Source of the DNA: Candidatus Bipolaricaulota bacterium
Lineage (GTDB): Bacteria; Bipolaricaulota; Bipolaricaulia; UBA7950; UBA9294
Reading direction: 5' to 3'
Length of the DNA stretch: 34,561 nt
Assembly (NCBI GenBank): GCA_026390315.1
Contig: JAPLGE010000091.1
Span: 1-34,561 of the forward strand
Shown: positions 32,186 to 34,561 of the stretch, one piece after another
How the letters are laid out: every line of letters starts with the position of its first letter
How positions within the stretch are numbered: position 1 is the first letter of the stretch
Position numbers and translations under genes: made by a program
The notes under the pieces: generated by a model
What the model was told of the DNA's origin: nothing
The model's database searches: none
Seen by the model: the letters and a program-made list of their open reading frames with translations, nothing else

Positions 32186-33262
<1,077 letters not shown>

Positions 33263-33488: not shown

Positions 33489-33673
33489 TCCCCGAGCCGG
33501 ATCTTCCGCCCCGGACGCCCGCCGGCCTGACTCCTCGAGCCTTCGCGGGCGCTCGCTCGCCGGGAACTGGGCGCAGAAGTCAAGAGGCAAGACCAGACCC
33601 CCGCGCCCCCCCATCGGTGTCTCCTCGCTCCCTCCATCCCTGAGGGAAGAGACACCGTAGCCTCACCTCCCGC

Positions 33674-33735
33674 TTCGAGTACCTTCCTTAGCTGAGGCAA
33701 CGATCCCGTTTCGTGTACTTTCTTGGTGAGGCAAT
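33674..33735 (+). repeat. Imperfect direct repeat upstream of the riboswitch promoter
   Basis: TTCGAGTACCTTCCTTAGCTGAGGCAACG (33674) and TTCGTGTACTTTCTTGGTGAGGCAAT (33710), 36-nt period. Confidence 0.6.
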
Positions 33736-33743
33736 GCGCCCAC

Positions 33744-33772
33744 TTGTCCTCGGCGACGTCCTCCGCTAGAAT
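33744..33772 (+). promoter_or_regulatory. Sigma70-like promoter for the riboswitch transcript
   Basis: TTGTCC-N17-TAGAAT, placing the TSS near 33779, at the 5' edge of the aptamer. Confidence 0.65.
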
Positions 33773-33778
33773 CACTCC

Positions 33779-33866
33779 GAGCCCGAAAAGGCAAACCCGG
33801 CGAAAGCCGGGGACGCAAAGTCACGGACCTAACGGAAGGGTTCCCACGGTGGCCGGACCGCCGAAG
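33779..33866 (+). ncRNA. Cyclic-di-GMP-I (GEMM-I) riboswitch aptamer
   Basis: GGCAAACCcggCGAAAgccgGGGACGCAAAGtCacggacCTAA...ggtgGCCGgaCCGCCGA matches the GEMM-I core (GCAAACC, CGAAA tetraloop region, GGGACGCAAAG, CTAA, CCGNNGA). Confidence 0.95.
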
Positions 33867-33908
33867 GCGAAGACGCATCCAAGCGTCTTCTTCGCCTTGT
33901 TCCCTTTG
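33864..33908 (+). terminator. Terminator-like expression platform of the riboswitch
   Basis: AAGGCGAAGACGC-ATCCAA-GCGTCttcTTCGCCTT then GTTCCCTTTG; left arm abuts/overlaps the aptamer 3' end. Confidence 0.7.
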
Positions 33909-33944
33909 TGAAGTCTCCTTGCGTCGCCGCTTCTCGGCGTGGCT

Positions 33945-34204
33945 CGCGGCCCGCCGACCGCCTCTCCGGGTGCGGTCGGTGGGCTTGCGGGTCCGAGCCG
34001 GAAGCGGGCGAGGGGGTGGACTGAGGAGAAGAGAGGAGTGACTTGCCCTCCTGTGAGTACCTCCGGCTGCGGGCCCCACTTCTGGGGCCCGCGGTCCTTT
34101 CCCAGGTACGCTGGAGGAGAGACCGGCGCAGGTCAGTTAGCGGCGAAGCGGCCGAAAGTCAACAGAGGACCCGCCTGAGCCGCTTGCGCAGCGGGTCAGG
34201 GCGG
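33945..34204. other. Hairpin-rich non-coding region (possible structured RNA)
   Basis: GCCCGCCGACCGC/GCGGTCGGTGGGC (33949-33984), GCGGGCCCCA-CTTC-TGGGGCCCGC (34069-34092) inside GTACCT/AGGTAC, and CCGCCTGAGCCGCT-TGCGC-AGCGGGTCAGGGCGG (34171-34204). No convincing ORF. Confidence 0.5.
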
Positions 34205-34248: not shown

Positions 34249-34422
34249 CTAGCGTTCCTTCTCGTGCCGTTCGAGGTACTCGGCGATGGCCTCGACGGTC
34301 ACGTAGTTGAGCGAACGATCCTTCTTCTCGGCGAGCTTGATCAGCCTCTCGACCAGCTTCTCCGCCTGCCTCTTCTCCGGGATGTAGATGGACATCTTGT
34401 CCAGGACTGTTTTCTTCGGCAT
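34249..34422 (-). CDS. Small ribbon-helix-helix (CopG/MetJ-Arc-like) DNA-binding protein
   Basis: 57 aa, below the ORF-track cutoff: MPKKTVLDKMSIYIPEKRQAEKLVERLIKLAEKKDRSLNYVTVEAIAEYLERHEKER; strong SD (GAGAGGGGGG) upstream. Confidence 0.8.
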   Translation of the reverse strand: MPKKTVLDKMSIYIPEKRQAEKLVERLIKLAEKKDRSLNYVTVEAIAEYLERHEKER

Positions 34423-34499: not shown

Positions 34500-34561
34500 G
34501 TGCCTAAGTCCCGCACGCGCCGTCCCGGAGCCCGCCTCGATGGCAGGAGTGCCTCGCCGTC
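34500..34561 (+). CDS. Possible start of a CDS running off the window (GTG start)
   Basis: GAGAGGAG SD-like, then GTG CCT AAG TCC... open to the window end (VPKSRTRRPGARLDGRSASP). Confidence 0.3.
   Translation, partial: MPKSRTRRPGARLDGRSASP

Follow-up and report, generated by a model that had tools for sequence, protein, structure and literature searches.

c-di-GMP-I riboswitches normally control a downstream gene, and few cases are known in which a riboswitch is part of a noncoding RNA instead of a gene leader. A c-di-GMP-I (GEMM-I) aptamer at positions 33780-33866 (+ strand) of a contig from a Candidatus Bipolaricaulota MAG raises the question what such an element does when no gene follows it. 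The window, i.e. the whole stretch of DNA that was analysed, is the entire contig C171 (34561 bp) of a 1.76 Mb genome in 223 contigs. No + strand gene was found 3′ of the aptamer up to the contig end at 34561, where a GTG ORF starting at 34500 (+) runs off the contig. The directly downstream same-strand gene by which a cis-acting riboswitch is recognized is missing at this locus, which has the following features:

32186-33262, − strand: divergent upstream neighbour, MalK-type ABC transporter ATPase (ABC_tran, OB_MalK, TOBE_2)
33744-33772, + strand: σ70-like promoter TTGTCC-N17-TAGAAT (9 of 12 matches; 0.1 expected)
33780-33866, + strand: c-di-GMP-I aptamer; P2 has a GAAA loop, and P3 combines tetraloop-receptor-like arms (CCUAAC/CACGG) with a small apical hairpin
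33849-33911, + strand: GTG, the only possible start in the frame of the ORF-type relatives, with a stop after 20 codons; judged noncoding
33864-33898, + strand: stable hairpin AAGGCGAAGACGC/GCGTCTTCTTCGCCTT (33864-33876 with 33883-33898), overlapping the 3′ strand of P1, weak U-tract
33924-33990, + strand: conserved block 2, 77-97% identical in the second copy; hairpin 33949-33984 with TCTCCGGG (33963-33970) at its tip
34045-34066, + strand: conserved block 3, CCCTCCTGTGAGTACCTCCGG; contains CCUCC twice, each stretch anti-Shine-Dalgarno-like
34069-34103, + strand: GC-rich hairpin GCGGGCCCC/GGGGCCCGC with tail TCCTTTCCC; closes the conserved block on its 3′ side and is the proposed transcript end
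34252-34422, − strand: convergent gene of a 57-aa protein, ribbon-helix-helix-like (RHH-like) by eye, no Pfam match

The aptamer and its promoter-like site

The GEMM-I core named in a preliminary description of this DNA was confirmed with covariance models. RF01051 matched positions 33780-33865 with 75.4 bits (E 3.5e-15, whole-genome search; gathering score 35) and RF03167 matched 33781-33866 with 68.1 bits (E 3.1e-14, cmscan; gathering score 59), both above the gathering score. Within the Rfam clan the choice falls on RF03167, the c-di-GMP-I-GGC variant. The G at position 47 of its consensus (GCGAAG), which we infer from consensus and family name to be the defining mark of this variant, is absent from the window, which reads GCAAAG. 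Because position 47 is an A, the aptamer is filed under RF01051. In the alignment, the canonical ligand contacts G20, G21, C46 and A47 are kept (residue numbering after PMC7288161), and the contacts of RF01051 are complete (G20, C46, A47 and a C pair near position 92, the latter placed by alignment only). Judged by its sequence, the aptamer is expected to bind c-di-GMP. A specificity for cGAMP was considered on account of the stretch AAAAGGC, which reads ACAGGGC in many GEMM-I RNAs, and was rejected since the altered base is position 19 and G20 is kept.

The promoter TTGTCC-N17-TAGAAT, also described before, proved to be the sole promoter-like site in 1.26 kb, compared with a mean of 0.1 in shuffled sequences. 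Its −10 box ends about 7 nt before the aptamer and, therefore, the first transcribed base, at about 33779, would be that of the aptamer itself. Immediately 5′ of the −35 box, at 33674-33736, lie TTCGAGTACCTTCCTTAGCTGAGGCAACG and TTCGTGTACTTTCTTGGTGAGGCAATG, imperfect direct repeats with a spacing of about 36 bp and possibly binding sites of a regulator. An inverted repeat, CGGTGTCTC...GAGACACCG, is located at 33615-33657 in the intergenic DNA that separates the MalK-like gene from the promoter of the RNA. The statement that no gene follows on the same strand was upheld as well: the GTG at 33849 in the aptamer frame stops after 20 codons, and the region is devoid of codon bias.

Ten c-di-GMP-I matches and seven GGDEF domains were found in the host genome. 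Several of the other matches precede ordinary genes by eye, e.g. for a secreted protease-like protein, and other signal-peptide ORFs. The host genome also has c-di-GMP-I aptamers in tandem (L005/L010 and L004/L009), and a signal-peptide ORF follows the L010/L005 pair.

Extent of the RNA and its relatives

A second full copy, 81% identical to the window over 330 nt, is located at C212:6744-7072 and is preceded by a promoter-like site (TTGTCT-N17-TACTAT) at the same distance from the aptamer. The two copies are 97% identical in the aptamer, 57% in the hairpin 33864-33898, 77-97% in 33901-33990, about 60% in 33991-34050 and 80-87% in 34051-34110. Upstream, and downstream until the convergent RHH-like gene, identity is at background (30-57%); the conserved unit therefore extends from the aptamer to about 34110. 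The unit folds far more stably than shuffled sequences, with a z-score of −6.4 for the whole RNA and of −7.7 for the 3′ domain alone.

The terminator-like hairpin reported behind the aptamer stood only in part. The hairpin 33864-33898 is stable, but its U-tract is weak, it is absent from the list of the terminator scan, and no other part of the module is as poorly conserved in the second copy. Ligand-controlled termination at this hairpin could occur in the window; the hairpin is not conserved in C212. Hairpin 34069-34092, the last conserved element, is the better candidate for the transcript end. Its U-tract is weak and it is not listed by the scan; similarly placed hairpins in G020, G001 and another family of the phylum have better U-tracts. 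A third copy in the host genome (L007, contig C15, 1501-1587) looks decayed, with A47 changed and no recognizable −10 box. It occupies the ancestral locus described below, beside an Lhr-type helicase, and a membrane pyrophosphatase gene follows 1059 nt downstream. Searches up to E 1 of the window's end and ten related loci gave no second Rfam family of note in the 3′ domain, and in 100 genomes of the phylum, aptamer-less matches to the window's 3′ domain did not exceed chance.

R1, a model of the window's aptamer subtype, detected 31 copies at ≥74 bits in the order, set apart by 11 bits from ordinary GEMM-I matches. These relatives are of two kinds. ORF-type members (G002, G006, G018b, G019a, G020a, G020c, G024a, G025b and G028; in other families G060, G092, G095a and G098b) mostly carry a Shine-Dalgarno-like GGGAGG in the apical hairpin of P3. 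Their secreted-protein ORF (MAGLPK and signal peptide) starts from an AUG within the tetraloop-receptor-like arm. Pairs of them display a third-position excess (e.g. 39/19/54) and gaps in multiples of three. From their sequence, the ORF-type loci L022, L023, L025, L032, L035, L037, L049, L229 and L236 appear to be compact translational switches with the start site inside the aptamer.

The window belongs to the noncoding kind, found in 16 genomes from seven genera of the family, in which the 200-400 nt following the aptamer evolve as noncoding RNA. Mismatches are flat over the codon positions (19/15/21 in the window pair, 22/23/22 in G010/G011, 45/49/49 in G018a/G017) and gaps break the reading frame. 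Several members including the window have lost the AUG position (ACG, AAG, AGG); in several others the AUG is part of the tetraloop-receptor-like arm. Translation from the GTG at 33849 or from the relatives' AUG was rejected, as the codon-position tests gave no coding signal. Two noncoding members, G001 and G027a, are less certain, their aptamers being more like the ORF type. The 3′ domain of the noncoding kind can be aligned only within genera. A viral origin was rejected, since the single IMG/VR match is a leader of the ordinary kind, in front of a secreted-protein-like gene.

Members of the noncoding kind share one place in six genera, beside a divergent Lhr-type helicase or a GPICDECLGR-motif protein. 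At most of these loci a gene for an ArsB/CitMHS-type transporter follows on the same strand, 350-1090 nt downstream. All ten genomes examined have a promoter-like site of the transporter's own, TTGNNN-N17/18-TANNAT, which is weak (7-9 of 12 matches, without shuffle control) and recurs in place and sequence within genera. With its neighbour thus equipped, the RNA gives the impression of an independent unit at the ancestral locus, too. The copies in the window and on C212 sit outside this locus, and neighbours differ between loci.

CU-rich motifs and a proposed mechanism

The octamer TCTCCGGG occurs in 10 of the 16 noncoding 3′ domains, compared with a maximum of 5 for any 8-mer in 200 shuffles; this count includes genomes of close relatives and overstates independence. 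Folding places it at a hairpin tip in G000a, G000b, G001 and G009-G011, and as CTCCGGG in G000c. One paralog group (G024c, G025c, G026, G027b) is devoid of UCUCCGGG. In 12 representatives, CCTCC was counted 17 times (7.0 expected; 0 of 300 shuffles) and CTCCGG 12 times (2.1 expected). UCUCCGGG, CCUCC and CTCCGG are by sequence anti-Shine-Dalgarno-like, and the 3′ domain has the conserved CU-rich loop motif typical of anti-Shine-Dalgarno sRNAs, its loop position being predicted by folding. As CU-rich motifs can pair with any Shine-Dalgarno sequence, they name no target. A general switch between the 3′ strand of P1 and a downstream CCUUC was rejected because duplex energies were, overall, no better than those of shuffles (Stouffer z −0.9). 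The CCUUC motif is enriched, and only the G010 group stands out in the duplex-energy test.

In a different family of the class (G096-G098), the RNA core headed by c-di-GMP-I aptamers is another one, CUCC(C/A)AGAGUUUU-stem-(C/U)ACCUCCU-stem-UUUUUGCUC within an outer helix. An alignment of eight sequences has 93% paired cells and a clear loss when slid; 8 pairs are changed on both sides, compared with 2.3 ± 1.3 in shuffles (0 of 500). The core is also present without a detected c-di-GMP aptamer in G095, G097 and G099. The aptamer-less core on G099:C221 lies near the contig start and has a promoter-like sequence of its own. No Rfam family matched the core, and it could not be aligned with the 3′ domain of the window. 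It therefore seems that fusion took place on more than one occasion, or that the RNAs have become too different to be recognized as related. The loci L232, L235, L225, L226, L250, L254, L255 and L257, with covarying stems and an invariant ACCUCCU loop and with or without an aptamer, represent a candidate new structured RNA family. They also have a UUUU/UUUUU internal loop flanked by GAG/CUC.

Among the options raised in the preliminary description, that of a noncoding RNA is favoured by the conserved block, the noncoding substitution pattern, the two copies and their relatives, and the end of conservation at about 34110. We regard it as probable that the element is an aptamer-headed noncoding RNA and not the leader of a gene, and an aptamer-headed regulatory RNA, in which we place moderate confidence, is the best reading overall. 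The locus would be a noncoding RNA gene in its own right, about 330 nt long (33779 to about 34106), with the c-di-GMP-I aptamer as 5′ domain and a structured, conserved effector region as 3′ domain. The RNA would most likely act in trans as a regulatory RNA, and binding of c-di-GMP would alter the amount of RNA made or the folding of its 3′ domain. More tentatively, we propose an anti-Shine-Dalgarno mechanism, in which the CU-rich motifs (UCUCCGGG at the hairpin tip and the CCUCC stretches) would pair with Shine-Dalgarno regions of target mRNAs. Transcription, ligand binding, the direction of control and mRNA pairing are what we infer from this make-up. A phylum-wide class of c-di-GMP-controlled trans-acting sRNAs, in which GEMM-I aptamers were fused more than once to RNAs displaying anti-Shine-Dalgarno motifs, is conceivable but rather doubtful at present. 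In such a class, one second messenger would set the activity of a translational repressor RNA.

Alternative explanations and known systems

The merRNA of Bdellovibrio has been proposed to be a c-di-GMP reservoir or sponge (PMC3627812). A plentiful aptamer RNA that takes up the messenger and sets it free again, with a 3′ domain serving for stability only, would agree with the merRNA-like make-up of the window RNA, which combines a GEMM-I aptamer with a length of several hundred nt and the absence of an ORF (PMC3627812), and with the three copies in the host genome, two of them full and one decayed. However, a mere sponge would not need the shared CU-rich 3′ motifs, and the other family has its 3′ RNA also in aptamer-less form, so that we consider this function unlikely. 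Loss of function has even less to recommend it. The third copy without A47 and a recognizable −10 box, and the ORF-type relatives which begin their ORF at the matching place, would fit a former ORF-type switch that lost its ORF and now does nothing. Such decay is highly improbable given that the aptamer and two 3′ blocks, but not the flanks, are conserved between the window and C212 and that the motifs are common to several genera.

The two other options of the preliminary description involve neighbouring genes. An unusually long 5′ leader or attenuator could belong to a gene past the contig end or to the ORF starting at 34500, as would be usual for c-di-GMP-I switches and as the same-strand transporter of most relatives at the ancestral locus might suggest. 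Conservation between the two copies, however, is at background after about 34110, the next gene lies on the opposite strand in the window and at C212, neighbours vary between loci, and the transporter has its own promoter-like site, weak and uncontrolled by shuffling but recurrent. A leader is improbable on these grounds. The antisense option, in which c-di-GMP would set read-through past 34106 against the convergent RHH-like gene at 34252-34422, gained from the arrangement in the host genome, where the second copy, too, is followed by a convergent RHH-like paralog, 93% identical. Among riboswitch families, moreover, the antisense arrangement is most frequent for c-di-GMP switches (PMC9943018). 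It lost in the relatives, where the arrangement is not conserved: RHH-like genes are common in the family (eight in the host genome) and unlinked to the RNA in other genera, and the stretch between RNA and gene is not conserved in the host genome. The RHH-like gene was therefore rejected as fixed partner of the RNA; one duplication, from which both copies in the host genome may derive, explains the pair. Antisense control is thus very unlikely.

If the preferred reading of a trans-acting regulatory RNA is true, these bacteria may, as far as sequence evidence goes, have signal-controlled regulatory RNA. A conserved set in one phylum, together with a covarying RNA with and without aptamer, would demonstrate that small RNAs have repeatedly acquired ligand-sensing domains, and c-di-GMP control of a trans-acting RNA would become open to testing.

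The window aptamer resembles RF01051 and RF03167 in sequence, structure and ligand-contact residues. In contrast to these cis-regulatory Rfam classes it has no cis gene, and its position 47 is A instead of the G of the GGC consensus. In Rli55 of Listeria, a B12 riboswitch heads a noncoding RNA whose effector part is a protein-binding ANTAR-like element (PMC8079631). The order of aptamer, hairpin and further part in one noncoding RNA is the same, whereas the ligand and the effector part differ and the proximal hairpin of the window is not conserved. The SAM riboswitches SreA and SreB of Listeria act in trans by pairing with another mRNA and masking its ribosome-binding site, and SreA in addition regulates, in cis, the operon that follows it (PMC8079631). 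The window RNA would share the pairing with mRNA but has no cis operon downstream. CU-rich anti-Shine-Dalgarno loop motifs on variable stems are also known from the alphaproteobacterial alpha-r14/cuckoo sRNAs with their CCUCCUCCC loops (PMC10746234); these lack an aptamer, and the main loop motif of the window is UCUCCGGG. In make-up, the window RNA also resembles the merRNA of Bdellovibrio bacteriovorus, a stand-alone, massively expressed GEMM-I noncoding RNA of several hundred nt without a conserved ORF, reported only in Bdellovibrio (PMC3627812). It likewise places a GEMM-I aptamer within an ORF-less noncoding RNA that seems to stand alone, but it occurs in another phylum, in several genera and with CU-rich 3′ motifs, and would extend the merRNA idea from one genus to an unrelated phylum.
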